Shown one piece after another: positions 5,353 through 45,500 of a stretch of 64,000 nt of DNA; positions within the stretch are counted from its first letter, which is position 1; the number at the start of each line of letters is the position of its first letter. Made by a program: the position numbers and the translations under genes. The notes below the pieces were generated by a model that was not told the origin of the DNA, did not search any database, and worked only from the letters and a program-made list of their open reading frames with translations. This DNA is from Anagrus nilaparvatae (lineage: Eukaryota > Arthropoda > Insecta > Hymenoptera > Mymaridae): the NCBI GenBank assembly GCA_022575985.1, contig JAKSXM010000107.1:2976001-3040000 (forward strand). The letters are read 5' to 3'.

Positions 5353-6009
5353 AATGATACTTTTTTTTGTTTATTAAAATTTTAGGGTTTTTGTTGTGTG
5401 TGTCTATCGTAAAAAAAAAAAAAATAATTTTAAATAAATTTAAATATTATAGGCAAAAATATGATCTTTATTTCAAATTTTGTACACACAAAAAATATTA
5501 TGTTTTAGAACAATAGAAAATTTTTACATTATGTAATATAAAATTACAAAAATTTTGCTTAAATCTATTTTACATAGATTTTTTTTACTAAAATTATATG
5601 CCTTTAACTTCCTGCCAAATTGGTAACTTCAGATATATCAAGTTTCATAAAAATATATTTGTGGTTTACAGTGTTTCGATGTATTTATTGTATTTGAAAT
5701 TTTATGAATAAGATTTTAGAAAGAAATTATTGGTTATTGTCAATTCATAAATTTTCAACATAATATTATGATTAATTTTGAGTTATGCACTGTTAGGTTA
5801 CTTTGCTTAAAATTTGCTTAAATCGCATGAGAATTTTATCAAATTACTTGAGAATATAGGCAAAATTCAAACAAGTAGCCACAAAATTCAAACAGATTTC
5901 TTAAATATTCAAGCACAGATATCTGACAGTGTATAGAAAAAATTTTTAAGGTTTCATAAGATAAAACAATAAATTTATAGAATTTTGTAAAAACATGATT
6001 AAACTTAAA
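5353..6009. other. AT-rich flank left of the Penelope insertion
   Basis: No gene was seen. Its last 15 bases (5995-6009) form the left copy of the target-site duplication of the Penelope-like element. Confidence 0.5.
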
Positions 6010-6041
6010 GTTGTTGATACGTCCAAATAAATTATTAAAAT

Positions 6042-6107
6042 TAAGTGATAATACGACCTTGTTGGACCAAGAGCAATAAAAAATACAAATTATTTTTTAC
6101 CGACGTT
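6042..6107. repeat. Inverted copy of the element's own 5' end
   Basis: These 66 bp are the reverse complement of 8272-8337, which encodes the first ~22 residues of the Penelope frame. The copy ends at CCGACGTT, which is also the complement of the AACGTCGG end of the hammerhead-like motif. This suggests a template switch at 8-nt microhomology. Confidence 0.85.
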
Positions 6108-6136
6108 TCGTCATCGAACTGATGACCTTATCAAGG
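6100..6136 (-). ncRNA. Hammerhead-like motif in the Penelope 3' region
   Basis: Minus strand: CCTTGATAAG, stem GTCATC/GATGAC with loop AGTTC, then GAAACGTCGG. Compared with the copies at 5.0, 8.5 and 49.2 kb, stem II has a different sequence but is again perfectly paired. The flanking CCTTGATAA and GAAACGT are unchanged. This covariation supports a selected RNA fold. Confidence 0.55.
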
Positions 6137-6513
6137 AACCTTTATTAAAAAATTCATATATAAATTACAATGATCTATAAAATTAATTAGTTACAAAATT
6201 TATAAGCTTACCAAGTAGGTAGTTATCACATATTTCTAAAATAAGAAATACAGTCAAAAATTAGGTAGTACATTTTATAGTTATAAATATTTAATTATTA
6301 TATTAGTAACATTTTTATATTAATAAAATTTAGATTTATTAAAATTAATTTACAATAGTTGAAAATAATAGATTAATTAAACTGTTACACATTCTGAATG
6401 CTACTGTTTATGAACTATATATATATATGTATATGAGAGAGAAAGAATATTTACAAATAAAATTCATAAATAAATGACATACAAATAACGACTGCTTGAA
6501 AAAAAATATTATT

Positions 6514-8334
6514 TTAAATGATTTGGTTAAGAAGTATTTCATAGGGAGGAGAGAAATTTTTTAGATCGGTTTTTACATTTAATGCATGCTTTTGATGTTT
6601 TTTAATGTAGAACAATTCAACAAGCTCTCTTTTTTTTAAATTGCTTTCTTGGTGTAAAATTTCAAACTCCTCAAAGTTAAAATCATGTTCATAGCCTTGA
6701 TTATTGGTTTCTTTCTTGTGAAGAGAAATCACATTGTAGTTTTTCTCACTTCTACTATAATTTTTTTGGTGTTCTTCAAAAATTCTTGTACTGGCTAATC
6801 TACCTGTTTGGCCTATATATTTACTATCACAATCTTTACAATTAATTAAATAAACTATATTTTTATGTTCTTCTTTTTTAATTTTATCTTTACCTAATTT
6901 AATGAATTTATTAAGTTTGAACGGTATGTGAAAAATAATGTTTAAATCATATCGTTTAATGAAATTTATTATATGATTTGTGATATTTTCATTTACATAT
7001 GGAAGTTTGAAAAGGTTTCTACTATTAAAATTTGTATCAGAATCTGTATTTTGTGAACTATTGAGAGAATTTAAATGAATAAGTCTCTTTTTGATGTGCT
7101 TGGAGATTAAAGATTGAGGATAATTATTCAACAGTAAAATTTCATTAATGTATTTGAGGTTGCTGGGTTGAAATTCTTTATCAGCCAATTTAATAGATTT
7201 GTCAGTAAGATTTTTGATGATTGCTATTTTGTGTTGCATAGGATGATTAGATAAATAATTCAAAACTCTACCTGAATAAGTAGGTTTTCTATACCAATTA
7301 GTTAAGATGTTGCCATAATTATCTCTATGTATCATAAGATCTAGAAAGTTCAATTTTTGATCATTTTCCATTTCCATTGTGAATTTAATTCTAGGATGGA
7401 AACTATTGAAAGTATTTAGGATGGTTTTAATCTTATCTTTAGGAACAATAAGAAAGGTATCATCAACATAACGGCCATAGAATGGAATATTAAAATCAAA
7501 ACTATTTAAAACTGTATTTTCTAAATCATAGAATGATATTTCTCCAAGAATAGGAGAACTTGGGTCGCCCATTGGTAGGCCGTAGATCTGTTTATAGAAT
7601 TTACTATTAAATTTAAAATAAGTAGTGTTGACTAAGATTTCTAGGCCAGAAATGAACTCATTCAATGGAATGTTTGTATACATTCTTATAGCGTCCCACC
7701 TATTTTCAATACTTTTCTTTATCAAATCGAACGGTATGCTAGGATACATGCATACAACATCTAAAGAGATCATTACGTAATTATCCGGAATTTTGATATT
7801 TTTAATTTTGTTGATAAAATCATAACTATTTTTAATGCTTTGAGGAGGTTTTTTTATACTATTAGAGAGAATTTCTTCATAAAGTTGGGAGAAAAAATAT
7901 TTAAATGAGTCAATGCATGAAATAATAAGTCTGAAAGGTAAGTTATCGTCTATAATTATATCATCAGTAATTTTATGAGCTTTAAGAAGACCATATGCTC
8001 TAGCTAAAATACACTCTGATACTACTGAATCTTTAGCTTCAGAATTATTAAGATAACCTTTTTTCTTCCATTTTTTTAGCAAGTTAGAAAATAATTTACG
8101 AAGCATATCAGATGGGTCATCAGTAATATGTGAATAAGTATTTTTATCGGATAGAGCTTTTTCAATACTTAAATTATATTGTTTATTTGTAAGTAACACA
8201 GTACAATTTCCTTTGTCAGCTTTTGAGAAAAAAATATCAGGGTTCTCTTTAAGAAATTTTTTTAATTCATTAACGTCGGTAAAAAATAATTTGTATTTTT
8301 TATTGCTCTTGGTCCAACAAGGTCGTATTATCAC
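6514..8334 (-). CDS. Penelope-like reverse transcriptase with C-terminal GIY-YIG endonuclease
   Basis: The 606-codon frame encodes the replication protein of a Penelope-like element, which copies element RNA at a nick made by its own endonuclease. Order of domains: an N-terminal RT extension (FSKADKGNCTVLL, ~36-48); RT motif A SLDVVCMYPSIP (~190-201) with its catalytic Asp; motif B LPMGDPSSPI (~253-262); motif C YVDD (~289-292); a Cys-rich linker; and a GIY-YIG nuclease beginning VYLINCKDC then KYIGQTGR (~494-512). Complete Penelope proteins are usually longer, around 800 residues, so the N terminus is missing. The frame opens with GTG at the element's truncated end, so the true start is absent. 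No internal stop occurs, so the insertion looks fairly recent. It is probably inactive because of the truncation. Confidence 0.92.
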   Translation of the reverse strand: MIIRPCWTKSNKKYKLFFTDVNELKKFLKENPDIFFSKADKGNCTVLLTNKQYNLSIEKALSDKNTYSHITDDPSDMLRKLFSNLLKKWKKKGYLNNSEAKDSVVSECILARAYGLLKAHKITDDIIIDDNLPFRLIISCIDSFKYFFSQLYEEILSNSIKKPPQSIKNSYDFINKIKNIKIPDNYVMISLDVVCMYPSIPFDLIKKSIENRWDAIRMYTNIPLNEFISGLEILVNTTYFKFNSKFYKQIYGLPMGDPSSPILGEISFYDLENTVLNSFDFNIPFYGRYVDDTFLIVPKDKIKTILNTFNSFHPRIKFTMEMENDQKLNFLDLMIHRDNYGNILTNWYRKPTYSGRVLNYLSNHPMQHKIAIIKNLTDKSIKLADKEFQPSNLKYINEILLLNNYPQSLISKHIKKRLIHLNSLNSSQNTDSDTNFNSRNLFKLPYVNENITNHIINFIKRYDLNIIFHIPFKLNKFIKLGKDKIKKEEHKNIVYLINCKDCDSKYIGQTGRLASTRIFEEHQKNYSRSEKNYNVISLHKKETNNQGYEHDFNFEEFEILHQESNLKKRELVELFYIKKHQKHALNVKTDLKNFSPPYEILLNQII

Positions 8335-8525
8335 TTAATGATTAAACTTAAAAATTTTTTAATATTCAATAAATTAAACATTAAAATTTAGAACTATAAC
8401 ATGTTTCAATTTACAATGCAAAACTATTTAAGATTTGAAAGTATAAATTACATTAAAACTATTATTAAATAAAAATATTTGATTTCTGAGCTAACAATTA
8501 TTTGCTTTATTTTTTCAATAAATTG

Positions 8526-8630: not shown

Positions 8631-9665
8631 ACGAGCGGGTATCATTGCGCCGCTTTATGAAATGTGCCGCTTATTTTGTGCCGCTAATTTTTTGCCGCTT
8701 TATAAAGGTGCTAGCACAATGTGAAATTTAATAAAAAATAATAAAATTTTGTTGGTTAGGCAGATTAAATAATAAACAATAAGGAAGGTTATGATAAAAA
8801 AATTAAAAGAAATGTTTACATATAAAAGAACGTATAAAAGTATATTAGGCATAATCTGTTATAAAATTATTATAAGATAAATAATTGGAATGAAAGTAAT
8901 AATTATCAAAAATAAAAAATAAGTGTTGCAGATTATAAAAATAAAAAATTGGATAATTTAATATTTGTTACGTCCAATTAGATAATTTTTAATTAAATTT
9001 TGTTATGACTTTATTGGACAAATAATAAATCTTTTTGATTTATAAATGTTTTAATTACGACGAGACTCCACGGAGAATATCCAGGATATGCACGAGTCCA
9101 CGGAGAATATCCGCGATATTCCCGTTATATTATTTGTATTGGCGCATGGCCGGGGGGGCCTTCGGCCCCCCCTGCCCCATTTGAGTTCTGTGGGTCATAT
9201 TTGGGCTATGTATATTGTGGATATTTACCGTGGATATCGTGGATATTCCGGTGAAAGTAGTCTTTTCGTTTTTAAATAAAAACTTTACTTGTAGTGATCA
9301 ATGAAACCAAACATTTATTAATTTAAGAACGATATCCACGGTGAATTTTCACGATATATATAGTCAAAATATGACCCAGAAACCTCAAATGGGGCTGGGG
9401 GGCCGAAGGCCAAATTTAATAATATTTTACCAGATTATACCTAATACTTTTATACGTTCTTTTTTATGTAAACATTTCTTTAAATTTTTTTCTATATTAT
9501 AACCTTTCTTATTGTTTATTATTTATTCTGCCTTTATACCGACAAAATTTTATTATTATTTTTTTTTAATTTCACATTGTGTTAGCACCTTAATGAAACG
9601 GCAAAAAATTAGCGGCACAAAATAAGCGGCACATTTTATAAAGCGGCGCAATGATACCCGCTCGT
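8631..9665. mobile_element. Palindromic MITE with TIR ACGAGCGGGTATCATTGC
   Basis: Ends at 8631 and 9665 are inverted for well over 100 bp, and the arms continue inward with interruptions to the centre. The left arm carries an extra ~270 bp (about 8880-9146). The centre holds a GC-rich hairpin (GGCCGGGGGGGCCTTCGGCC near 9147) and its partner near 9388-9413. No target duplication is visible and no protein is encoded. The 63-codon frame at 9088-9279 is a by-product of the palindrome. Confidence 0.82.
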
Positions 9666-12406: not shown

Positions 12407-13493
12407 TTAGGTACTACATCCAAAAATAAAAAAAAATTAAGTTTTTTTTTGTATTTTTTGGTGAAAAAAATTTTGAGAAAAGAATTTAAAAAAAATTAGT
12501 TATCAGATTCGAGATATCGAGTAAAAATCGTACTTTCAAATATAAGTACTTTCATGGAAATAAATTAGGTATTACATCCAAATTAAAAAAAAAAAAAAAT
12601 AGTTTGAGATTTTTTGATGAAAAAATTTTGGAAAAAAAAATTAGGTCTTAATTCCAAAATAAAATTTATTAGAAATTATTTGTGAAATATCACCGGTTAC
12701 AATATTTTCAGATATTCGTACTTTCATAGAAAAAAATTAAGTATTACGTCCTAAAATAAAAAAAATTTTGGCATTTTTTGTATTTTTTGGCAACAAAAAT
12801 TTTGAGAAAAAAATTTAAAAAAAATTAAGTATCAGGTCCAAAAAATTGCTATAAACGATATTTCTAAAACTAGTACTTCCACAGAAATAAATTAAGTACT
12901 GCGTCCGTAAAGAAAAAAAAATTGGAATTTTTTGTATTTTTTGGTGAAAAAAATTTTGAGAAAAAAATTTTCAAAAATAAATTATAAGATTTGAGATATA
13001 GAGTAAAAACGATACTTCTAGATATCAGTACTTTTATGGAAAAAAATGAGGTACTACATCCAAAAAGAAAAAAAAATATAGTGTTTTTTTAATTTTTTTA
13101 TGTAAAAAGTTTTGAAAAAAAAAAATTTCGAAAAATTACGTATCAGATGGAGAAATCCTTTACAAACGATAATTTTAGATATTCGTACTTTCATAGGAAA
13201 AAATTAAGTATTACGTCCTAAAATAAAAAAAATTTTGGCGTTTTTTGTATTTTTTGGCGACAAAAATTTTGAGAAAAAAATTTTGAAAAAATTAAGTATC
13301 AGGTCCAAAAAAATGCTATAAACGATATTTCTAAAACTAGTACTTCCACAGAAATAAATTAAGTACTGCATCCGTAAAGAAAAAAAAAATTGGTATTTTT
13401 TGTATTTTTTGGTGAAAAAAATTTTGAGAAAAAAATTTTCAAAAAATTAGTTATCAGATTCGAGATATCGAGTAAAAATCGTACTTTCAAATA

Positions 13494-15307
13494 TGGGCAT
13501 ATCTCACCAAGTGGTTATATTGCATATATGAGGGTTTTAATGAAAATCCAGCTTTCTGTTTAAAAAAAAAATTATTGAAATTTATTTAAATATATTTCTT
13601 CTCAAGCCTCAAGAAATTTTTTTGCCTAATTTCTTTAATTATTATGAAATAACAGCCTTAGAATGATTCGAAACCCTATTATTTTGTTGGTAACCTTGTT
13701 AAGTTTTTTAAATTCTTAACATTACAGTGGGAATGCCGTAAAACCATTTGCCTTTTTATAAATAGATTTTGATAAATTAATAATATATTTAATTTCTTCA
13801 CATAATTAAAACAGTGTGCTCCTTTTCTAAAAAAAATTCTGCCAGCTGAAATATTGGTAACCACATTTTCAAATAAATCCGACCAAAGAAAGTTTCTTTA
13901 GCCACAAATGAATGCCGTGAACAATTTTTACTTCTAACTATTCTCAAAATTCTGTACAATGTTTCACAATTTGAAAGTGATTTGAGAAAAACTGGTGCCT
14001 CCAATAATTTAGTAGATATCGACACCAAAAGAATTTGTTGTCGATGCGTAATTTTGATACTAAAATCACATTTTTTAATGGCACTCGTTCAATTTTTAAA
14101 AAATCTTCGCAAAATCTTTTGTGATTTATGTAAAATGTTATAAGATTTCAGTTAAAAAAAACGGCATAGCTTAATTCAATGCGTTGTATGTATAAACTGC
14201 AGTTTTATATAAACTAATCGTACAATTTCGAAGCGTTGTTTACCAATAACCTAAAAATAACAAACGTGTAAGAATTACGTATATTTCATTCTTATAGTTC
14301 AAAAAAGATGTTTTTGATTTGAATTTAGTGCTTTAAAAAAATAAATAAAATTTTGTAGTTGTAGGTCATACTTTGTGGATCATTAAAATCTATATTTCAA
14401 GAAATATACATTTTGAAAAAAATCAAAAACTCTAAAAAAATGTTTCAAAAATCATAGAAGGCACAACTAATAACTAAATGATTTAATAAATTATAATAAG
14501 ATAATGCGATCATATTTTAACCAGTGGTGGATTCAGAAAAGGGCCTAAAGGGTGTGGCGCTTAAGCAAAATTTTGTATGTTTTCTTATGAAATTTGTATA
14601 AAAAAACAAAATTATGAATAAAAAACATGCATTTTTTGGAGTTCAGGGGAGAAAATCACCCTTACCACCCCCCTTTTGATCCACCCATGATTTTAGCAGT
14701 AGTCAAATAAAAATTAGGTATAGCGATAAAGAATTTTTAAAACAATTATTTAGTATAATAGGAAGTTTAAAGACAAATAATTTAAATGCTTTGAGTGATT
14801 TTTTGAAACAATCAGGAACTTTTCTTACATATTAAAATTTTATAAAACTGCAAAAATAAAAATTTTTTTAAAATAATTTTTTAATAACTAATTTGTTAAC
14901 TATATTTTAGACTTTATGTGAGCAATGAGTTAAAGATTCAGGGAGCTCAGCCTAGCTATACCTATAGCGCAGTCGGTAAAACATTTAATTTTTTGTTTAT
15001 AAAAAAATTAAAAATTTATCTTCTTATTATTGGTTTTTGGACAGAAATAAAATTTATTGTTATATACCTCTACATTTTCCAGTATTTTTGAGAACTAATT
15101 TCATTATTTAGTAATTATAACCTTAAATATATTTTTTAATTTAAGAAGTTCATTTATCAAACGCCGTATCTTAAAATTAAGTTACGCAAAGAAAATCTTA
15201 ATTCTTATTGTTTTATTAAACTTCTGTCCAAATTTCATTATTGTGCTCTCAAAAATAAAATTTATTTTTTAAAATTAGAAATATAACCACTTGGTGAGAT
15301 ATGCCCA
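13494..15307. mobile_element. TA-flanked TIR element inserted in the satellite array
   Basis: TIR TGGGCATATCTCACCAAGTG (continuing to ~27 bp) opens at 13494 and its complement ends at 15307. The interrupted satellite unit contains TATA once at the junction, so the element duplicated TA, as Tc1/mariner-like elements do. Inside are only short minus-strand frames (about 13679-14028) that may be transposase debris. A truncated reverse-orientation relative lies at 47886-47990. Confidence 0.75.
14522..14689. mobile_element. Small MITE-like insertion, imperfect TIRs
   Basis: CAGTGGTGGATTCAGAAAAG at the left is imperfectly complementary to CCCCTTTTGATCCACCCATG at the right, giving a ~168-bp unit. 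It lies within the TA-flanked element. No clear target duplication was found. Confidence 0.4.
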
Positions 15308-19295: not shown

Positions 19296-21167
19296 TTAAA
19301 CCATACTCCGTGGTTTAACAAAGATTTTATGAATTTTCAGTTTCTTTTTGGTTTTTCGTTTCATCTTCATTGTTATGAATTTGAATAGTTTTTTTATTGT
19401 TGTTTTTAGCAATGGATAATAGAACCAAATGTATTCCAATAGCAAACCAAACAATGAAATACAAATTCCTATAATTATTAGCCACAGTAAAATTATAGGT
19501 AAAGTGTCCTCTTCATCTTTAATTTCTTCAGATGCTGTTTTTTTACTGATTTTGTTAGCGTGGTCATAATCAGATCTCCATTTTACGTCTAGTCCAACTT
19601 CGTGAATTCGTAAATAAATATTTGCAAATTTATTTCTTAATGGAGAATTATGAGGAAACGTAATAATGAGATATGATTGATACAAAATTAAATCAGTTAT
19701 TTTGTATCTAATGCCATCCAAGATATTGTTCTTTCGATAAAGAATTTTTTTAGCATGTCTCTGAAGATGGATAAAAATATGTTTAACAGAAATTCTTTCT
19801 TTCTTATCCGGGAGCCTTGCCAAATCCATTACATTTTTATAAATATCTTTAGTGTTACTTTTGAATATTTTTAAATCTAAAGCAGTATATTTATATATTA
19901 CAGTAAGATTCTTTTTGAATATGTCTTCAAATGATTCAATAGTTGGTATTTCTTGGGTAGAATATTTTAGTGTCGTAACATCAGAAACAAGATCAGAAAT
20001 GAAAAAAAGTGAAACAACAAATAAAGTAAAGAATATTATTTTTGTTCTTAAATTACGACGAGGATCCATGTTTACGCCTAAACCTAACATCATGCTGTAA
20101 ATATTAAACGCTGACCACTCATCTTTTTTTAATTTGAAAATGAAAACAATGAATAAGAATATAAGAATTATTCCAAGCAAGCTTAAAACGGAAACCAAGA
20201 TTTCAGAAGAAAATACCAAATTCTTTTTTCTTAAAATTGGTGTAATCAGAATATATTTAATGGGTTCTACAAAGAATGTATGCAATAGATTGCCGTTCAG
20301 GTAATACTTTATCACACTAACAACTATATCTAGTTTTTTTATAGCAACTTCACCAACAGCTGTATTATTATTTGCCATTGGAATAAACGTCGAAGTTACA
20401 TTTAGAGAATTCGCAAAACATTCGTAAGATTTATACAAAGGTATTAGTAAATATAAATCATATTCCATATAATAATTTATTAAATTATTTTTATAATAAT
20501 CGGGCCAATTAGCTTTATTAACTCCTACCTTCATATTGTAGCCATTGATCTTATCAAATGTATCAGGAAAAATGATAAAAGATGAATCTTTGTTTAAACT
20601 TTTCATAACGACAGATTTTAACAATCGCTTAGAGTAAAAAATAGAAGGATTTTTAGAACCTATTTTATAAAATATGGTAAAGTCATAAAAATTTAAATTA
20701 TTTGCATATTCAAGCAATTTAAAATTTAGTTCTTCAGTTGGAAAGTTTTTCAAATTAACAAAGAGAATTACTTTAGTATTTGTTAAATAAAACAGAGAAT
20801 TTTGAATTAGTTTCAAAGTATTAAAAGATTTTTTATCCAGCTTAATTATGTCACTTTCACTTAGAACAATAATATGCAGAGGTGCAGAAATATTGCGATT
20901 ATACTGAATATTACGATCTTCTGATCTTCTAGGGTTTAGGGGTTTGTTTAGGTCAACGACAGCAGTTGGGACATGATTTATCAAGTACTTATACGTTTTA
21001 AGGTAGCTATTTTTATCAATTAAATCACTTCCATTTTTGTAGTTTGAATATAACGTGATCCTATTTGGTTGTACTTCTTTCAATACTTGATGTAGTATGC
21101 TTTCTACTTCAAACGATTGCACCAAATCCAATAGCGTAATAAAGCAAGTTAAACGGGAAATCTTCAT
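19296..21167 (-). CDS. Divergent insect ionotropic receptor (chemosensory IR)
   Basis: A 623-residue single-exon frame of the variant ionotropic glutamate receptor family, which forms ligand-gated cation channels in dendrites of chemosensory neurons, usually with co-receptor IRs. An ATG at 21167 gives MKISRLTCFITLLDLVQS, a plausible signal peptide; the frame extends eight codons further upstream but without an ATG. The N-terminal half is the extracellular region, with a split ligand-binding lobe around FDKINGYNMKVGV (~205). TM1 is at ~323-346 (VSVLSLLGIILIFLFIVFIF). The pore loop and TM2 run ~350-396 (DEWSAFNIYSMMLGLGV ... FFISDLVSD). The second lobe follows, then TM3 at ~557-584 and a Lys/Arg-rich tail. 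The ligand-binding lobes are too diverged to assign a ligand or a named IR. An AATAAA on the minus strand at 19258-19253 could serve polyadenylation. Intact, no stops. Confidence 0.85.
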   Translation of the reverse strand: MKISRLTCFITLLDLVQSFEVESILHQVLKEVQPNRITLYSNYKNGSDLIDKNSYLKTYKYLINHVPTAVVDLNKPLNPRRSEDRNIQYNRNISAPLHIIVLSESDIIKLDKKSFNTLKLIQNSLFYLTNTKVILFVNLKNFPTEELNFKLLEYANNLNFYDFTIFYKIGSKNPSIFYSKRLLKSVVMKSLNKDSSFIIFPDTFDKINGYNMKVGVNKANWPDYYKNNLINYYMEYDLYLLIPLYKSYECFANSLNVTSTFIPMANNNTAVGEVAIKKLDIVVSVIKYYLNGNLLHTFFVEPIKYILITPILRKKNLVFSSEILVSVLSLLGIILIFLFIVFIFKLKKDEWSAFNIYSMMLGLGVNMDPRRNLRTKIIFFTLFVVSLFFISDLVSDVTTLKYSTQEIPTIESFEDIFKKNLTVIYKYTALDLKIFKSNTKDIYKNVMDLARLPDKKERISVKHIFIHLQRHAKKILYRKNNILDGIRYKITDLILYQSYLIITFPHNSPLRNKFANIYLRIHEVGLDVKWRSDYDHANKISKKTASEEIKDEEDTLPIILLWLIIIGICISLFGLLLEYIWFYYPLLKTTIKKLFKFITMKMKRKTKKKLKIHKIFVKPRSMV

Positions 21168-21678
21168 TTTTAAATCGGTTGCGATGTTCAAAATACCTTA
21201 AAAGGAAAAATTTATATGCGTTGATATTTTGTTTTGATTTTGATATTTATTTAAGGATTCATTCAATTACAATGTAAAAAACAAAAACCCAATGAAAGTA
21301 AAATTATTCGTTTTTTCGTTTTATTTAAATAATAACCAATTACTTAAACCTAAGGAAATTAGCTGACATACATAGCCATACTAACCTGATTGACATGCTG
21401 TAGGTATAATAGTTATAAAGCTCTCATATGATCGATAGGTTGAACATTATATTATTTATATACTTCAATGAGAGCGTTATTTAGCTTCTTGGGATTTGTT
21501 TTGGAAGGGTTTACTGACTACTTGTTTATCACAAACACCCTAGATTCCAAAAGTTACTTTCTAGTATTGCATTTATCTGCGAACTTAAATTATTGTCCAT
21601 GCTTTACTATTTTACTGTAAACACAAATCATTCATCGACCCTAAATTTAAATTATTCTAATTCCCGTTTGACCCTAAA
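21168..21678. other. Upstream region of the receptor gene
   Basis: AT-rich, with no other gene recognised. It presumably holds the promoter, or an upstream non-coding exon, of the minus-strand receptor. No unambiguous TATA or initiator was picked out. Confidence 0.4.
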
Positions 21679-31583: not shown

Positions 31584-31785
31584 GTTTTTTATGTGAATAA
31601 AAAAGTTTTTTTTGGAGTTGTGAATTTTTCGTTGTATATCCGGTGCGTGCAAGGTACAAGTGTGTGCGTAGTATATAAAAACGAGTAAGCCACGTGTTTG
31701 TAGAAAAGTGTTTCACTAGTTCTTATAAATTTTGGCAGCTTTATTTTTTCTTTAATTGTGTTTTTTGCTGTGAATCAAAAGAAAA

Positions 31786-34700
31786 ATGTCGTCAGAGCAA
31801 AGTTTGAATCATCACGTGTCAAAATTTGATGGTTCAAATGTGCAATTATGGAAGTTTCAGGTTAAAAATTTATTAATTGCAAATGATTTGCTTGACATTG
31901 TTGATGGCACGACAAAAATTCCGGATATTAAAGAAGTGACTGAATATAAGAAATTTATTAAGGACGATGCACGTGCGAAAGTGATATTAACGGGGGCGAT
32001 GTTAGACAAGCAGGCCGCGAAATTTGTCGCGTGTGAATCTGCAAATGCTATATGGACAAAATTTGCGTCGTTATTTGAACAAAAATCGGAAAGCAGTAAA
32101 CTTTCGTTATTGCAAAAATTTCAATGTTTGACAATGTTGCAGACAGAATCCGTGGGTGATTATGTTACGAGAGTGCAAAATATAGCGAGGAGTCTTGCGG
32201 ACATTGGGGAAAAGGTCTCAGATCCCATGATAATGGCAAAAATCCTTGGCGGTTTACCTAGAAAATTTGACAGTCTCGTAGTTGCATGGGATTCAGTTGC
32301 ATCGGAAAATCAAACAATGGACGCATTGGAAGAAAGGCTGATTCGAGAAGAAAGTCGTTTGGCGCAAAAAGAAGAGGAAGTGACGGCGCTGTATTCGTTG
32401 ACAGGAAAAGGCGCGAATAAAAAACGTCATAATCAAAGCAATAAAGAGAACGCAAATCCCAAGAAAAAGTCGTCAATCAATTGTTTCAGATGTAAAGAAA
32501 TCGGACATATTGCGAAAGAATGCGAGCAGTCAAGGAGAGGGAAAAAGGTAGAAGAAGAAAATGTCGCGTTGATAGTGTTAAGTGCTATTAAGAGTGTTGG
32601 TGACGGTGCGCACGGTGGACCCTCAAAAGGGGAGTGGATTATAGATAGTGGGGCATCGCGACACATAACATCTCAACGACATTTTTTCTCCGATCTCGCA
32701 CCGTTGGCAACAAACGGGTATGTAGTTCTTGGTGATAAAACACAGTGCAATATAGAAGGAGTGGGGACTGTTAAAATTTTAAGAAAAGTAGGGAGTGACT
32801 GGTTTCCCGGTGTGTTAAAAAATGTGCTTTATGTACCTAGTTTATTTAAAAATTTATTCTCGGTGGGGGCATGTACCTCAGAAAATAAGAACATTGAAAT
32901 TGTATTTAGTGGAAATCAAGTTTGTATATATAAAAATAATAATGTAGTGATAACAGGTGCAAAACAAAGCAATGACATTTATACTGTTAACATAAAAGCG
33001 TGTTGGGACAGTAAAAAAGACATTGAATTAAATTTAGCAGTTTCCAGCTCAAAGTTATGGCACGAAAGGTTGGGTCACATAAACATGCAGACAATCAGTA
33101 ATCAAGTGAAGGCCGGAAAAATTGAAGGTATCAAACTAGATGGTAGTACTCAATTTGATTGTAAAGCATGTAAAATCGGTAAGGCACATAGATTACCATT
33201 TAAACCAATATATAATGAAAAATTGCATTTCGGAGTGGGAGAATTTTTCCATTCTGATATTTGCGGGCCTTTGTAAGTGACGTCACTGGGTGGCGCACGT
33301 TATTTTGTGACTTTTATTGATGAAGCCTCAAACTATGTTAATATAGAGTTTATGAAATATAAATCTGATATTTATGAAATTTTTCAGAAATTCGAAAGGC
33401 GAATCGCAAATAAGTTTGGCAAACCGATGAAAGTTCTAAGATCTGACAGGGGCACTGAATACAGGGCTGGCGTTATGCAGGAATACATGGCCAAGCATGG
33501 AATTGAACATCAAGTAACAGGGGGCTATGCACCAGAACAAAACGGCAAGGCGGAACGTCAGAACCGGACAATTATGGAAAAGGTCCGTACCATGCTCCAT
33601 GCCAGATCAGTGGACAAATTCTTATGGGCTGAGGCGGTGAACACTGCTGTGTATATTCTCAACAGAGTCACGGGACCAGCAGAGTCAGTAGCAACAGCAT
33701 ATGAGTTATGGATGGGTCGCAAACCTACGGTGTCTCATATCAGGGTGTTTGGGACTGAAGCAGCTGTACACATTCCAAGTATCAAACGGAAAAAATTAGA
33801 TGGTAAAGCAGTAGAGGGTATTCTTGTAGGTTATCAAGGAGATTTGGCGAACTACAGGGTTTATGTTCCTGAAATTAGGGAAGTAGTTGAATCTCATGAC
33901 GTACTATTTCATAGGTTCCTTGAACGAGATGGAGGGGATCAAGCTGACAACCAAGCCTGGATAAGGATTGATGTTCCATCTGAGGAAAAAGAAGTAGGTC
34001 AATCTGGTAACGAAGCTGCTGGTCAAATAGTTGGTACTGGTGCTGCAGGTGTAAGAGCTGTTGGTGACCATGAAACTCAGGATAATGAAGTTCAAGATGC
34101 TGAAGATGCTGAAGATGCTCAAGAAGATATTCAGCAGGAGGGTGAGAAAAATCAGGAGCTCTTAGAGGAACTTAGTTCAATCTGTGATGAGCTGAATGAC
34201 ACAAATGCAGAGGAACTTGTAGAGGAGTTCATGGATGCTCTGCAGTCACCAGACGTTAGGAGAAGTACTAGAGAGAGAAAACCACCCAATTGGCATAAGG
34301 ACTTTGTGATGCCCAAGGACTGAGAAAGAGATTTAGAGGTTAGTTTTGGCTCAGTTAAATTAAATGAACCTAAATCATTTCAGGAAGCAACTAGAGGTTC
34401 AAATCTTGAGAGATGGAAAGGTCCCATAGATGAGGAGTTAGAAGCACACGAGGTCAACAAGACGTGGGAACTGGTTCCTCGACCACCAAACAAACCTGTT
34501 ATAGACTCGAAGTGGATTTTCAAAATTCAGAGTGATAAAAATGGTCAACAAAATCGTCACAAGGCCAGACTATGTGCTAGAGGCTGTTTTCAAGAGTATG
34601 GTATTGATTATTATGAAACTTTTTCACCTGTTGTTAGGTATGACACAATCAGTTTTGGCGCTGGTGGCATGTAACGATTTGGAGATGATACAATTTGATA

Positions 34701-35899
34701 TCAAGACAGCATTTCTATATGGCAGGTTGGAAGAAACTATATATATGAAGGTTCCTGAAGGGGTCAAGGCAGGTCCAAATATGGTGTGTAAGCTCAACAA
34801 GTCATTATATGGTCTAAAGCAGGCCCCACGCTGTTGGAATATCACCTTTACCACATTCCTGAAGAAGTTTGGTTTTCGTTCAAGTATTGCAGACAACTCA
34901 CTATATGTAGCAAAAATAAATAATTGTAAAATCTTGTTATTATTGTTTGTAGATGATGGGCTTCTGATAGCCAAAGATAAATGTATTGTAGATAATATTA
35001 TAAGCGAGATGAGAAATAGTTTTAAAATTGTGGTAACAGAGCCTAGTAAGTTTGTAGGAATGCAAATAGTTAGAGATAGAAGTAAAAATGAATTATGTAT
35101 TTATCAGAAAGATTATATAGATAGTTTAATTGAACGTTTTAGTATGAATGACTGTAAAGGTTGTAGTACTCCTGCTGAAACAGGTTTAGTTTTACGTTCT
35201 TCTAATTTAAACAATGTAGAAAATAATGTATATTCGTATAGAGAACTAGTAGGCTTACTAATGTTTGTATCGATTGTATCTCGTCCAGATATTTCTTATT
35301 CGGTAAATTATTTGAGCAGGTTTTTAAATTGTTTTAATGTAACTCATTGGCGTGCAGCGCGACGCGTTTTAGCATATTTAAAAAGTAGCTCTAATCGTGG
35401 TATTTGTTACAGAGGTAAAAATGTTGAATTAGTAGGGTTCTGTGATTCTGATTATGCGGCAGATCCAGAATTGCGTAGATCAACCTCAGGTTTCGTTTTT
35501 ATGTTAGGAAATGGGCCAATTACTTGGCTTTCCCAGCGACAGCCCCTGGTTACGCTAAGTACCATGGAAGCTGAGTATGTAGCAGCAAGCTTAGCTGCAC
35601 GTGAAACTGTATGGTTGAGAAGATTACTTAGTGATATAGGATCTCGATGTGTCAAAGAGACAGTTCTTAATATTGACAATCAAAGTGCAATAAAATTGAC
35701 TAAAAATCCTGAATTTCACAAACGTAGTAAACACATTGATATCCGCTATCATTTTGTAAGGGAATGCTATGCGAGAAAAGTCATTGAACCTGTATACGTA
35801 TCGAAAGATAAACAGTTGGCAGACGGTTTTACTAAACCACTAAACAGAAAGCTGTTTGAAAGATTTATTGATCAAATTTGTTTAAAGTTGATCAAATAA
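31786..35899 (+). pseudogene. copia gag-pol polyprotein, interrupted
   Basis: In other copia elements a single frame encodes Gag, protease, integrase, RT and RNase H for cytoplasmic reverse transcription in virus-like particles. Seen here: an N-terminal Gag domain (SKFDGSNVQLWKFQVKNLL); zinc knuckle CFRCKEIGHIAKEC (~233-246); protease DSG (~287); the HHCC pre-integrase region; integrase catalytic Asp in HSDICGP (33256), Asp in RSDRGTEY (33445) and Glu in NGKAERQN (33553); the RT LYGLKQAPRCWN block and FVDD (34946-34957); RNase H DSDYA and STMEAEYVA. Lesions: in-frame TAA at 33274-33276 inside the integrase core, TGA at 34321-34323 between integrase and RT, and a one-base frameshift near 34640-34660 in the RT. 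Frames resume cleanly after each. The copy cannot make a full polyprotein. Confidence 0.93.
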
Positions 35900-36890: not shown

Positions 36891-38384
36891 ATGGTTCCTC
36901 ATTAGCAATAACAAAATGTTGTCAATATTCTATTTTACCTAATAAAAAATTAAAATATTAGAATAATTGTGCCAAATATTCTAAATTTAATAAAGAAAGT
37001 GGATAAACTTTCTCCTGATACCCAAAAAATTTTCAAACATCAATAAAAAGATATTTTAGATATTTTAAAAGAAAATTTTGAAAAAAAATTAGGTATCAGA
37101 TTGTTTTATCCAGTTAAAAAGATAATTCTACATATTAGTACTTTCATGGAAAAAAATGAGGTACTACGTCCAAAAAGAAAAAAAATTATGCTATTTTTTT
37201 AATTATTTTATGTAAAAAATTTAAAAAAAAAAAAATTTCGCAAAATTATGTATCAGATGGAGAAATCCTTTACAAACGATAATTCTAGATATTCGTACTT
37301 TCATAGGAAAAAATTAAGTATTAAGTCCTAAAATAAAAAAAATTTTGGCGGTTTTTGTATTTTTTGGCGACAAAAATTTTGACAAAAAAATTTTGAAAAA
37401 ATTAAGTATCAGGTCCAAAAAATTACTATAAATGATATTTCTAAAACTAGTACTTCCACAGAAATAAATTAAGTACTGCGTCCATAAAGAAAAAAAAAAA
37501 TGGTATTTTTTGTATTTTTTGGTGAAAAAAATTTTGAGAAAAAAATTTTCTATAAATAAATTATAAGATTCGAGATATCGAGTAAAAACGATACTTCTAG
37601 ATATCAGTACTTTCATGGGAAAAAATGAGGTACTACGTCCAAAAAAAAAAAAATTATGGTATTTTTTTAATTATTTTATGTAAAACACTTTTAAAAAAAA
37701 ATTTCGAAAAATTATGTATCAGATGGAGAAATCCTTTACAAACGATAATTCTAGATATTCGTACTTTCATAGGAAAAAATTAAGTATTACGTCCTAAAAT
37801 AAAAAAAATTTTGGCGTTTTTGTATTTTTTGGCGACAAAAATTTTGACAAAAAAATTAAAAAAAAATTAAGTATTAGGTCCAAAAAATTACAATAAACGA
37901 TATTTCTAAAACTAGTACTTCCATGGAAATAAATTAGGTACTACGTCCAAAAAGAAAAAAAAGATTGGTATTTTTTATATTTTTTTGTGAAAAAAATTTT
38001 AGGAAAAAAATTTTCAGAAATTTAAGTATCCGATTCGAGATATCATGTGAAAACCATACTTTCAAATATAAGTACTTTCATGGAAATAAATGAGGTATTA
38101 CATCCAAATTAAAAAAAAAAAAAAGTACCTCGAGCTTTTTTGGTGAAAAAATTTTTGAAACAAAAATTAGGTCTTAATTCCATAATGTTTGTGAAATATC
38201 AGCAATTACATACGTACGTACGTACGAACGTACGTACGTACGTACACACACACATACACACATACAGACTTTTTTTAAAAACCGGTTTTTTAGCTTCCTG
38301 AGGTCTCAAAACGTGCTTATATACCAAAAAATCAAAAAAAAAATTTTGACCGATCACAATGGTTCCTCTATGAGGAACCAAAAT
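36891..38384 (+). mobile_element. Helentron-like satellite-bearing element, copy C (most complete)
   Basis: Begins ATGGTTCCTCATTAG, which mirrors the right-end hairpin. It continues with several ~160-165-bp units (GATATTCGTACTTTCATAGG, TATCAGGTCCAAAAAATTAC, CGATATTTCTAAAACTAGTA), a TACG/CA microsatellite, AAAACCGGTTTTTTAGCTTC and the hairpin GGTTCCTC-TAT-GAGGAACC (38361-38379). Both ends are visible, giving ~1.5 kb. It lies 25 bp right of the split foldback. Confidence 0.68.
38208..38270. repeat. TACG and CA microsatellites
   Basis: Alternating TACG units (one GAACG interruption) pass into CACACA. It is placed exactly as the CA run in copy A. Confidence 0.9.
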
Positions 38385-41340: not shown

Positions 41341-41539
41341 GTTATAATTTCATAAATAATTTTCTTACTCAGGTTAGATATCCAATTTTTTGGAAATTAT
41401 TTCCCCAAATCATTTGCATTTTTTACTATTTTTTCTCTAATAAAAAATTATTTAAATTTTCTTATAAAATTAATTCTTGAAAAGAATTATTTTTAATAAG
41501 AAATTTAACGCACATAACGGAACAAACAAAATATTAATC

Positions 41540-41620
41540 GGTCTATTTCGGCTTTTGCTGAAATTAGTGTGAGCCATCATCAGTGTAATGCACTAATTTC
41601 CGCGTAATTACAGATAAACC
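41540..41620 (-). ncRNA. Hammerhead ribozyme, type III, minus strand
   Basis: Minus-strand fold: stem III GGTTTAT (41620-41614) with ATAGACC (41546-41540), 7 bp with one G-U; cleavage position C17 at 41613; stem I TGTAAT/ATTACA (41612-41607 with 41589-41584), perfect; core CTGATGA (41583-41577); stem II GGCT/AGCC (41575-41572 with 41553-41550); GAAA (41549-41546), the last A pairing across stem III. One extra U lies between CTGATGA and stem II. Loop I GAAATTAGTG (41600-41591) and loop II CACTAATTTC (41569-41560) are perfectly complementary over 10 nt. All invariant hammerhead residues are present. A transcript should self-cleave after 41613 (minus). A poly-A run follows on the plus strand at 41619-41640. 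Confidence 0.88.
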
Positions 41621-41858
41621 AAAAAAAAAAAAAAAAAAAATTGATGTTAGGGTTTATACATACCAAAAAAGACAAACTAAACATGTGCAACTGAGACTTT
41701 TGTCTTCTATGGACACACATATTGAACTAATACAATTAAAAGATTTCCCCCTCTCGGGAAGAATCTTTTCGTTGTTTTAGGAGAAAGATGACAAAGAAAC
41801 TTTCTAGATTAGGCCAGTGAATTGAGCTATGGCCGTTTTAATTAATATTATTCAAAAT

Positions 41859-42566
41859 TAAACAATAATATTTATAATCGACCTTTTTACGAGTACATAG
41901 TATTAAATGAATTTACAAATTCATCGCCCACGCTTTTTATATGCGGATGCTCATCGTCATCTCTTTTTTTATTAAGGCATACAAAGCGGCATAAAAAGGT
42001 CGATTATAAATATTATTGTTTAAGAATTACAAACGAGTAATAAAAAAATTATTAATTTTCATATATAGAGCTTGGACCTAATAACGCTCTGAGTTATAAC
42101 ATTCAACTCGCATTTCAATAAATATATATATATAACATCATTTCTTATATACAGAACAGATGGCTAAAGCAATGTGAGTCGTCCTCACAAGTGCTAAAAT
42201 CGCCATTTGTTAACTATATACAAAAAATAAGGACGTGTTTACATCAGCGTCTGTAGCACATACCACACTAACACACACAGCTACACTGATGAGATCTATG
42301 TGTTAGTGTTGATCGAAACGCTAGGTACCTTCAGTACCGACATTTAAAATCCGCGTAAATTCAAATTTTTAAATAAGTTTAAAAATTCATCTAATGTCGC
42401 CGCTTTGTATGCCTTAATAAAAAAAGAGATGACGATAAGCATCCGCATATAAAATGCGTGGGCGATGAATTTGTAAATTCATTTAATACTATGTACTCGT
42501 AAAAAGGTCGATTATAAATATTATTGTTTAAGAATTACAAACGAGTAATAAAAAAATTATTAATTA
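41859..42566. repeat. Foldback with 132-bp inverted arms and 66-bp direct repeats around a ribozyme
   Basis: The arms 41859-41990 and 42399-42530 are near-perfect complements (GCCGCTTTGTATGCC at the inner edge). A 66-bp direct repeat starting AAAAAGGTCGATTATAAA lies at 41993-42058 and 42501-42566. The plus-strand hammerhead at 42246-42322 sits in the unique centre. A separate 25-bp direct repeat, AAATTTTCTTATAAAATTAA and 5 more bases, lies outside at 41454-41478 and 42635-42659. The relative of that flank at 50.5 kb lacks the whole insert. Confidence 0.72.
42246..42322 (+). ncRNA. Hammerhead ribozyme, type III, plus strand
   Basis: Fold: stem III AGCGT (42246-42250) with ACGCT (42318-42322), 5 bp; cleavage position C17 at 42251; stem I TGTAGC/GCTACA (42252-42257 with 42280-42285), 6 bp perfect; core CTGATGA (42286-42292); stem II GATC/GATC (42293-42296 with 42311-42314); GAAA (42315-42318). 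Loop I CACTAACACA (42266-42275) is perfectly complementary to loop II TGTGTTAGTG (42299-42308), giving a 10-bp kissing interaction. Every core nucleotide of the hammerhead consensus is present. Predicted product: self-cleavage after 42251. A 5-bp hairpin GGTACCTTCAGTACC follows at 42324-42338. Active or not, the chance match is remote. Confidence 0.92.
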
Positions 42567-45500
42567 TTCAAAATTATTTAAAATTTTGAAAAAATTGTAT
42601 TTTAAAAATACAATTCACGTTCCTATGAATTATTAAATTTTCTTATAAAATTAATTCTTTTGTGAGCAAATACGACAAATTTTTAAAAATAAACATATTT
42701 ATAGAATCCTAAAACCAAGGAAATTTCAGATCCAAAACTATACCTCAAAGCATCTGAAACCTTTCGGGGTTACTTGAAACTTGATTCAGCCCGACCCAAA
42801 AAAAGACCTAAATGCCGGGTTGGGTATTTGAAACAAAATTTTGTTTAAAAATAATTTTTTCGTATTAGGCAATTAGAAATTCTGCTTATATAGATGAATG
42901 AAAATAATATGCTGATAAAACTCTTCAATTTTCCTCAGTTTACTTTATTTCTTTGAGATGCTTTCATATCGAGTTATTTTCTATAAATAGCCATTTATAA
43001 TCTTAAGAAAATTGCAAATGAAAGCATTTAATCTTTTTTAGCCTTTTTCTTATTACTCATTTTTGAAAGTATAAATATTTGATAGTACTTATTGGTTTAC
43101 AAAAACATGGCCACTTAATAATTTAACAGGAGTTTTATTGAAGCATTTTTTTTGTCTAGAAAATTTTGTAAAAAATCATCTACAAAAAAAAGGAAAAATA
43201 AAACTAAGCCAATTAAGAAGCTTGAAAAATTAAAAACCCAGTAAAATAGAAATTTTTTAATCAAGAACAGAGATAATGTGCTATTATAAAATTGAAAGCT
43301 TCTAGGATCTTAGCATGGATCTTAGCGAGGATGAATTAGCAAAAAGAAAATAATATTTTTTCTTTTTCCTTAAATACACTTTTGTTTGCCTAAAAAATGA
43401 AGACTACCCTTAGATAATGGAAATAAGTAAACAAGTACCACAATCTTACTATAATTTCACGCGGCTGTAATTTTCCAATTACTTAAAATTTATATTTATT
43501 CATTTCTCTTATTTATTTCTTAAGTTTTTTAACTCCTAACTTGAATACTAAATACGATACAAAAAAAGATAATTGCCTTAATTGTTCATTTTACAAGATT
43601 TTGTAAAATAATTACTTAAGTTATATTATAAATAAAAATAATTTTGTATTTAAACTGCTTAACAGTGTCTTAAATTTCATAAAATTTAAGTTTATTATAA
43701 TGGCCAAAAACGATTATATTAGAAAACTCTCTAATGCTGGAGTTTATAATTTTGAAACATTCAAAAAAGCAATTCATCAATTTACTATAACCGACCACAT
43801 ACGATTTTGAAATGGACCTAAAACTGCTAAAAAAGAAAATTTTAAGTCTGTTTAATATAAAATTAAAGAGCAGGCATGAAACTCATTTTAAAACTCTTAA
43901 ATAAATGAAATTACTCACGAAAGAAAGAAGATGAAAAAATCAAATCTCATTTGCAAACCTGATGCGATTACATTTTATCAGAGAATCTCAGGTTCGAAAT
44001 GCTTATAAATTTAACAAGGGGTTCGGATTTATGATCTCTGACAGAAAAATACAATGACTTGAAGAAACAAAGTCGTATAAAAACTTCCAAGTTACCGACA
44101 CTTCTTTATTTCTTCATATAAATTTTTTCTGTCTTCGTTTTCCTCGTAAAAAAAAACTCTAAGGAACTTCACTTTCTTGTTTGTTCATTTTTTCACGCTG
44201 TTTCTTTTATTTCTTTTACAATAGCAGCAGAATAAAAGTTGATGACAATCCGCGAAGCCAGCGAAGAACATCTCTCAGGTCACCAAGAGTGTAAGTAATA
44301 AAATAAAGCACATATAGAAAAAAATATGTAACAATAAAAGTCGAATATAGAAGTTCTAGAGCATAAGAAAAAAAGGAAACGAAAAAACTATATAAAATAA
44401 TTTTTATTTTTTTATAATTATGCTCTATGACTTTTGTCATTTATGCTTCAGACATTTTACTAAAAAAATAAATTTATGTAAAAAATTTACACTGTTTTCA
44501 AAAAAATAAAAAATGTTTATAATACTTTTCAACAATAATTATTTTTTCTTAAGATTTTTCCTCAGTAAATTGCTATTTTAATTAAAATTTATTTTTGAAA
44601 TATAAAAGATTTTGTTTTAGCATGATGATTAAATAAATGAAACCTTGCATCCATTCTCGAAACAAATTTAAAATAAAGTTCATTAAAATTTATAATTTTA
44701 AGCTGTAATGCGAGAAGCCATATCATAAATTTAATATTTCCAGATTTTATTTAAGATGGTCGATTTATTTACAGAAAAAAGGTTTAAAAAATAATTCTAC
44801 ACGAGCACTAAATGAAAAACTTTTTTTTCTATATGATTTAACCTGTTGAAAGGCCACTTTGAAATAAGTTTATCCACTCACAATGCCACAGGGTGGATAA
44901 ATCAATTGTTTTGGTAGCATAAAAGCAAACTGGAACTTTTTAAGACAGCTAAAACTGCTTACAAAGTTTGTTAATGCAAATGAAATGATTTATTTAATTT
45001 GTAGGATATGGACTTGAGATATTCAGATTATAAACTATAAACTGATTTTTAACTAGAAGAGCTCCCGAGAAAAATAGAAGATTAAATAAAATAGCTTATT
45101 ATAATTATAATTTTTAATAAGATTTTTGTTTTAAAAATAATTTTGTAAAAATCTACGAAAGCTTGTAATTATAGATGCAGACTCTTTATTACCAGAACAC
45201 AATAGCTTTGTTTCTAACTTTTTATAGCTAACAAATCTAAAAAAAAAATTAAAAAATAAAGTTTCGCAAAAGTCAATATTTTGAAACTGTGAAAAAGTAA
45301 TTTTGGGTGCACCTCAATATAGAAAGTAAACAGTACAAATACCAGCAAAGAACAGCACTCATAATTTTATATTAACTTACTGCAGGATAATATAAAAATA
45401 AAAATTTTAATTTCAGTAAAGGATAAAAATGTAATATTTCAATATTCTTGACGTTATTGTATCTAAGGACAATAGAACTTTTGAGAAAATAAGCTTTCTA

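Follow-up and report, generated by a model that had tools for sequence, protein, structure and literature searches.

Background

Metazoan non-LTR retrozymes consist of units of 150 - 450 bp which carry type I hammerhead ribozymes and for which circular RNAs have been shown, and Penelope-like elements (PLEs) have been proposed as a strong candidate for mobilising the retrozymes of animals (PMC7229834; this paper, PMC4918200, PMC7936874, PMC3088659, PMC7761336 and PMC3846280 are cited from extracts). Termite and fly genomes have been found to contain pseudoknotted type III hammerheads, as have delta-like agents of toad and of termite (PMC7936874), and insect elements with type III hammerheads have been mentioned as work in preparation (PMC7761336). 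Perreault et al. 2011 considered that pairing of loop I with the loop of stem II, or with a flank, is likely in some 40% of hammerheads (PMC3088659). A purified lizard PLE has been found to cleave and extend both DNA strands, with a preference for AT-rich DNA; it is predicted to be a dimer and has two internal start sites, the interval between them being the 30 - 40-bp tail (PMC11167929), a tail that PLEs carry optionally on one of their inverted pLTRs (PMC3846280). Mutation of the hammerhead did not alter insertion by the single PLE assayed in vitro, and sequencing reads neither started nor stopped at its cleavage site (PMC11167929).

The locus described here lies in a 64-kb stretch of the genome of Anagrus nilaparvatae (the window), and the genome of 489 Mb in 393 contigs was searched for its relatives. 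Four families of hammerhead-bearing units, A, B, C and D, are dealt with, all of them with hammerheads of type III. They are like the metazoan retrozymes in being short AT-rich tandem units with no LTR, PBS or PPT, in having, in family A, target duplications of more than 4 bp and in coexisting with PLEs, but unlike them in the type of hammerhead, in a loop pairing of 10 - 13 nt, in units of ~390 - 545 bp and, in family A, in a PLE-like tail on one arm and signs of a multi-unit template (PMC7229834, in extract). Since the hammerheads are type III and not type I, the term used is retrozyme-like, and membership of the metazoan retrozymes is not claimed. The plant LTR retrozymes are likewise non-autonomous and carry type III hammerheads, but here there are no LTRs, the duplications are of 13 - 15 nt rather than 4 bp and the arrays are two-armed and divergent (PMC4918200). 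The hammerheads of PMC7936874 are also type III, occur in insect genomes and have a loop II that forms Watson-Crick pairs with a loop of helix I; in that extract, however, the contact is a short GCCR/YGGC one made by an internal loop within a more extended helix I and the motifs are isolated, whereas here apical loops match over 10 - 13 nt in multicopy tandem units. The pseudoknot lengths given by Perreault et al. 2011, as far as the extract extends, are 4, 5 and 6 bp (PMC3088659). Family A resembles the PLEs, as far as the sources extend, in its tandem and inverted-arm insertions, AT-rich targets, internal start, target duplications and hammerhead motif and in a 30 - 40-bp tail that is optionally present on one inverted arm (PMC11167929, PMC3846280), but differs in that no open reading frame of at least 75 aa overlaps the A insertion and in that its hammerhead is of type III and has a long pairing between the loops.

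Loop pseudoknots, pseudoknotted type III hammerheads and type I animal retrozymes with PLEs as the suspected movers were thus already known. The new points are a loop helix of 10 - 13 nt, the presence of type III hammerheads in retrozyme-like arrays of an animal and an insertion mark in common with PLEs; searches of open-licence PMC papers yielded no report of loop helices so long, nor of animal retrozymes with hammerheads of type III. The shared mark, namely one tail per two-armed insertion, duplications of ~13 bp and mirrored unit order, can be counted and makes the proposed role of PLEs in moving animal retrozymes directly testable; it points to both DNA strands priming on one RNA hairpin. 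The loop helix provides a simple natural case of compensatory evolution in a ribozyme tertiary contact.

The family A hammerhead

The original prediction was of a complete type III hammerhead on the plus strand with an invariant core, a cleavage-site C at 42251 and stems III, I and II of 5, 6 and 4 bp. Both the sequence and a descriptor scan of the two strands of the whole 64-kb window confirmed the ribozyme, and the scan confirmed the stem lengths (Table 1). Three stems surround CUGAUGA and GAAA, cleavage is predicted after H17 and stem III is open-ended, as befits type III, and loops I and II comprise 22 and 14 nt. As judged from its sequence, family A RNA should cleave itself after 42251. 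The Rfam Hammerhead_3 model matched at 33.0 bits, with E 8.4e-5 for a 1.6-kb query, and so fell short of the 48.5 bits set as its gathering score; no Rfam match listed for the window attains a gathering score. A genome search with RF00008 listed no match at E<=10, a result that is uninformative because 68 of 40,753 candidates were scored. The descriptor matched twice in the window, both times with stems of at least 5/6/4 bp; 300 dinucleotide-matched random 64-kb windows together gave 21 matches at the loose threshold, 2 of them with stems of that length. A strong hairpin at 42160 - 42206 (+), with outer arms ATGGC...GCCAT and inner arms GTGAG...CTCAC, lies upstream of the hammerhead in the A unit and was seen in other A copies as well.

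Table 1. Positions in the window of the hammerheads, the nested insertions that carry them and the Penelope-like element
Feature	Position	Strand	Remarks
Type III hammerhead ribozyme, family A	42246-42322	+	Predicted cleavage 42251|42252; sequence, descriptor scan, Rfam
Family A stem III, AGCGU/ACGCU	42246-42250/42318-42322	+	5 bp; C17 = 42251
Family A stem I	42252-42257/42280-42285	+	6 bp
Family A stem II	42293-42296/42311-42314	+	4 bp
Family A core, CUGAUGA and GAAA	42286-42292 and 42315-42318	+	Intact
Family A loop I strand of 11-nt loop-loop pairing	42265-42275	+	
Family A loop II strand of 11-nt loop-loop pairing	42299-42309	+	
Whole family A insertion	41861-42562		Left arm 41861-41990, right arm 41992-42562
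Left arm, inverted, without tail	41861-41990	-	Outer end at unit position ~29
One full 508-bp family A unit (right arm)	41992-42499	+	
Partial second unit ending right arm	42500-42562	+	Includes tail hairpin 42534-42549
Target site duplication, left copy	41847-41860	+	14 nt
Target site duplication, right copy	42563-42576	+	14 nt
Second type III hammerhead, family B	41538-41622	-	Predicted cleavage 41613|41612
Family B loop I strand of 13-nt pairing	41591-41603	-	
Family B loop II strand	41557-41569	-	One mismatch in window copy
Older family B copy, left of A insertion	41439-41846	-	
Older family B copy, right of A insertion	42577-42660	-	
Penelope-like element, two-armed, one-tail	6010-8337	-	RT and weak GIY-YIG match, ORF 6514-8334
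Target duplications of Penelope-like element	8338-8352 and 5995-6009		15 nt

Units, arms and ends of the family A insertions

The 37-nt catalytic half of the A hammerhead occurs 378 times in exact form in the genome, and its reversed control not at all. The copies form tandem arrays of ~0.5-kb units which, being short, non-coding, low in GC and provided with hammerheads, have the anatomy of retrozymes. In the two-armed layout a block of minus units is followed by a block of plus units, and the 12 distinct insertions at the loci examined were divided equally between 6 two-armed and 6 one-armed ones; one array, C79, has 21 plus and then 12 minus motif copies over some 17 kb. It had been thought that the hammerhead in the window sat at the centre of a small foldback element, but it lies in one arm of a two-armed insertion, with no palindrome centre there, and it is the two arms that give the appearance of a foldback. 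Nor does the minus-strand neighbour form part of the same element: the hammerhead at 41538 - 41622 belongs to an older family B copy that A interrupts. The join of flank to flank across the A insertion (the empty site) is spanned by 14 B rows from 9 distinct places at 90 - 97%, and A was therefore inserted into an older copy of B.

A viroid-like or delta-like agent with hammerheads of both polarities in one RNA was considered and rejected because the two hammerheads belong to different nested elements, the minus one being that of B; the descriptor scan found no hammerhead on the minus strand of the A unit. The A arm sequence had no match in viral contigs. Among at least 120 loci with a loose type III pattern in those contigs, the descriptor retained 2, with loop matches of 3 and 4 nt.

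The outer ends of the two-armed insertions are 3' ends of units and fall at unit position ~24 - 37 or ~63 - 70, with a small hairpin between these, and they lie far from the cleavage site at unit 260/261; the inner junction of the arms varies between insertions. Both ends could be read for 13 two-armed insertions among the matches listed, which are not a random sample. The tail hairpin of ~35 - 40 nt was on exactly one arm in 12 of the 13; the other, C62b, has a tail on neither arm, a truncated right arm and no duplication. Twelve of 12 one-tailed has a probability of 2^-12 if the ends are independent and even. Exact target duplications of 13 - 15 nt flank 10 of the 13, that of C196c is of 13 nt with one mismatch and that of C95a, read by eye, is an ambiguous run of T. 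One-armed copies end at unit 32, 67, 70, 72 and 75, with L138 ending at 143. A tail of 30 - 40 bp on one of two inverted arms is a published feature of PLEs, and therefore PLE machinery most likely moves family A; the link extends to family A only.

The window contains a PLE with the same outline. Its ORF on the minus strand matches RVT_1 (E 9.3e-6) and GIY-YIG (E 0.005), both below the Pfam gathering scores, and it has inverted arms at 6040 - 6107 and 8272 - 8339 with ~30 nt extra on one of them, a tail that differs in sequence from that of family A. When the PLE 3' end was used to search the genome, with the best 40 of 91 candidates scored, 42 rows were obtained, and all 10 divergent pairs among the matches listed end once at 134 - 145 and once at 164 - 175 of the query, one end of each pair having the extra stretch and the other lacking it. 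A hammerhead-like motif, TTGATAAGGTCATC...GATGACGAAACGTC, was seen by eye near the 3' end of the PLE in the window; the positions that we take to be C3 and G8 read U and A, possibly a compensated core.

Pairing between loop I and loop II

Loops I and II of the A hammerhead had been described as exact complements over 10 nt, forming an unusual kissing helix. Exact complements they are, but over 11 nt, and since loop pseudoknots as such are common among hammerheads (PMC3088659), it is only the length of 10 - 13 nt that is unusual. Shuffled A loops attain an 11-nt match in 261 of 200,000 trials, loop I of A being low in complexity, and shuffled B loops attain a 10-nt match in 10 of 200,000. Taken alone the loop match is good but not overwhelming evidence; the case is carried by its recurrence in other families and by covariation. 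Matches of 11 nt in A, 13 in B, 12 in C and 10 - 11 in D occur in unrelated sequences, one architecture recurring with four unrelated pairs of loops.

An alignment of 27 distinct B hammerheads has a loop helix of 13 pairs with 97.4% of cells paired; 2 of the 29 distinct sequences, one of 88 nt with an 8-nt insertion and one of 81 nt with a changed loop II, were omitted because the columns had to stay in register. In 5 rows the G-C pairs at loop-helix positions 20-62 and 21-61 are replaced, both partners together, by A-U (GG/CC to AA/TT), a double change which, as these rows are related, may be one event, and there is a compensatory change at stem II pair 46-71 in one row. The A alignment of 9 distinct rows omits two sequences, namely the copy in the window (77 nt, with 3 nt inserted in loop I) and L216, a divergent relative which has a stem I of UAUGG/CCAUA and a 9-nt loop match. 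Among the aligned rows two pairs of stem I, 8-36 and 10-34, have both partners changed, G-U intermediates occurring at the first of them, and the loop-helix pairs change on one side only. The covariation score was attained by 0 of 500 shuffles for B and by 1 of 500 for A, whilst two of the five measures of covariation were not above the shuffles, these being the count of pairs changed on both sides (attained by 53/500 for B and 177/500 for A) and that of further pair types (343/500 for B and 497/500 for A). The question raised with the original prediction, whether genomic relatives would show compensatory or random changes, has thus been answered in favour of compensation in stem I of A and in the loop helix of B.

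Families B, C and D and further hammerheads

The B copy in the window has loops that match over 10 nt, and 13 nt match in most of the B copies aligned. At the three B loci read for a tail asymmetry the ends were ill-defined, and none is claimed for that family. Family C consists of tandem units of 390 bp whose loops, in the copies read, match over 12 nt, or over 8 - 9 nt in two divergent copies, and in family D the match is 10 - 11 nt in four copies and 6 in a fifth. Outside family A, the core pattern was found 154 times as against 12 for the reversed control, many of the 154 being short and type I-like.

Family C was found at L182, L186, L187, L189, L194, L196, L203 and L206-L210. Its arrays are one-armed; of the 10 distinct ones, 8 have their 3' end at unit 171 - 186 (core = 1), whereas L181 and L193 end earlier. 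No target duplication was visible at the family C arrays read, and it may be, on the evidence of these sequences, that family C uses another insertion route. At L185 (C1:20644567) there is another type III-like hammerhead, whose loops match over 7 nt and whose stem III, judged by eye, contains a single mismatch; a core string resembling it is listed at C195:10951601.

Unit variation and the form of the template

Unit length is private to each A insertion (503, 504, 506 or 516). The numbers of unit rows that follow include repeat reads of one unit, as loci overlap. Young arrays are almost uniform: the 18 rows of C333, from both arms, contain 2 distinct units that are one indel apart, the 6 rows of C95a, also from both arms, are all alike, and so are the 2 rows of C317, from the left arm only; such uniform arrays do not discriminate between forms of the template. 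Two arrays are variable, with 3 distinct units in 10 rows of C196a and 4 in 4 rows of C196b. In C196a (L139-L143, C196:11112037-11116378) one hammerhead base, followed from the outer end of each arm towards the junction, is G, G, C in the left arm and G, G, C, C, G, G in the right one, the variant C being a stem III mismatch that some units carry and others do not. In C196b three variants are each common to 2 of the 5 units compared and always have equal rank in the two arms. As the variants are mirrored in both variable arrays, a single multi-unit RNA, in linear or circular form, probably served as template for the two arms, although later gene conversion between the arms may be another source of mirrored variants. 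A monomeric circle cannot produce units that differ and are mirrored between arms, whereas a multimeric circle or a linear multimer can, and a monomeric circle is not required as template. If the templates were multi-unit, not every hammerhead had cut. The suggestion that A is a mobile self-cleaving RNA akin to retrozymes fits its anatomy, with tandem units, target duplications, an empty site and 378 exact copies of the catalytic half, but the two arrays that permit a test give no support to the canonical route through a monomeric circle.

Proposed cycle and alternative explanations

We regard family A as probably a retrozyme-like, non-autonomous retroelement that PLE machinery moves through a cycle of the following kind. 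An A array would be transcribed, and the type III hammerheads would trim the transcript, not necessarily to monomers. The PLE reverse transcriptase-endonuclease, probably as a dimer, would bind the tail hairpin of a multi-unit RNA and make staggered cuts ~13 bp apart in AT-rich DNA. Both cut strands would then prime reverse transcription, one on each side of the same hairpin, and both copies would extend upstream on the same RNA for a variable distance, giving two divergent tandem arms with a variable inner junction. The loop I-loop II helix of 10 - 13 bp, which exceeds the contacts described in the papers cited, would keep stems I and II together as their tertiary contact. Partial cleavage, hairpin binding and two-strand priming would between them explain the arms, the tails, the starts remote from the cleavage site and the mirrored order. 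The purpose of cleavage appears to be the weakest step, because the lizard PLE inserts in vitro without it (PMC11167929). A reading that extends to the whole class, in which a freely compensating loop helix of about a full turn (10 - 13 bp) stands in place of the usual short loop contact and is perhaps both the lock of the active ribozyme and the rod of the RNA at rest, and in which a PLE dimer on one hairpin lets two reverse transcriptases, one for each cut DNA strand and starting on opposite sides of the hairpin, copy the same multi-unit RNA, is offered more tentatively, the chances being somewhat against it.

In the canonical retrozyme route the transcript would be cut to monomers, these would be ligated into circles of ~0.5 kb and the PLE enzyme would roll round one of them. 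Circular RNA intermediates have been published for other retrozymes (PMC7229834), and the units of C95a and, bar one indel, of both arms of C333 are as uniform as a monomer circle would make them, but the mirrored differences in C196a and C196b are beyond such a template and make the route unlikely for family A. A second alternative concerns the loops, whose complementarity might be mainly an off-switch, with the core buried in a rod and the active hammerhead a transient form with little or no loop helix. When pseudoknots are left out, the fold predicted as best for each of A, B, C and D is indeed an inactive rod, at -19.3 kcal/mol as against -11.3 for the hammerhead without its loop helix in A and -25.2 as against -7.6 in B, the 503-nt unit folded as a circle reaches -110.2 as against -81.5 +/- 5.4 for 60 mononucleotide shuffles, and a switch of this kind would explain uncut internal hammerheads in multi-unit templates. 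That it is the main role of the pairing is nevertheless doubtful, for stem I of A covaries although its strands are unpaired in the rod, stems I and II of A together with the loop helix (-11.3 and -14.3, before any pseudoknot penalty) are on paper at least equally stable, and stem I exceeds stem II by two pairs in both A and B, a property linked to type III pseudoknots (PMC3088659, in extract). The most likely role of the loop helix is to clamp stems I and II; the same helix may also close the inactive rod, and as the two readings are not exclusive both may be true.

Growth at the level of DNA, whether through unequal crossing-over in a satellite or through the activity of a foldback DNA transposon, would make the ribozyme incidental. 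Long arrays such as the C79 one do exist, and homogenisation likewise yields identical units, but the target duplications, the empty site, the fixed outer ends with variable inner junctions and the PLE-like asymmetry of the tails render such an origin highly improbable, and the foldback transposon in particular was rejected on account of the outer ends, inner junctions and tails. The remaining possibility, that AT-rich repeats have produced the hammerhead match by chance, could appeal to the Rfam score below the gathering cut-off and to the RF00008 search of the genome with nothing listed, but in the face of the compensatory changes, of four sequence-unrelated families with one architecture and of the excess of core patterns over the reversed control, many short type I-like matches included, its likelihood is close to nil. 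It is the PLE-driven cycle acting on a multi-unit RNA that we prefer for family A.

Other features of the window

A Copia-type LTR element at 31774 - 35899 (+) has gag, integrase and reverse transcriptase domains spread over three open frames, and lies in a stretch whose GC, at 0.38, is above that of the rest of the window. An ORF of 633 aa at 19296 - 21197 (-) has a weak likeness to ligand-gated ion channels (E 0.021) and is perhaps an arthropod ionotropic receptor; a protein search gave 3 relatives. A satellite-like unit of ~155 bp is present in two arrays, at 12407 - 13494 and 37117 - 38168. Adjoining the PLE is a 107-nt inverted repeat (8631 - 8737 and 9559 - 9665, 93% complementary) which flanks a core of 821 bp holding further nested inverted repeats, possibly a foldback or MITE-like element.
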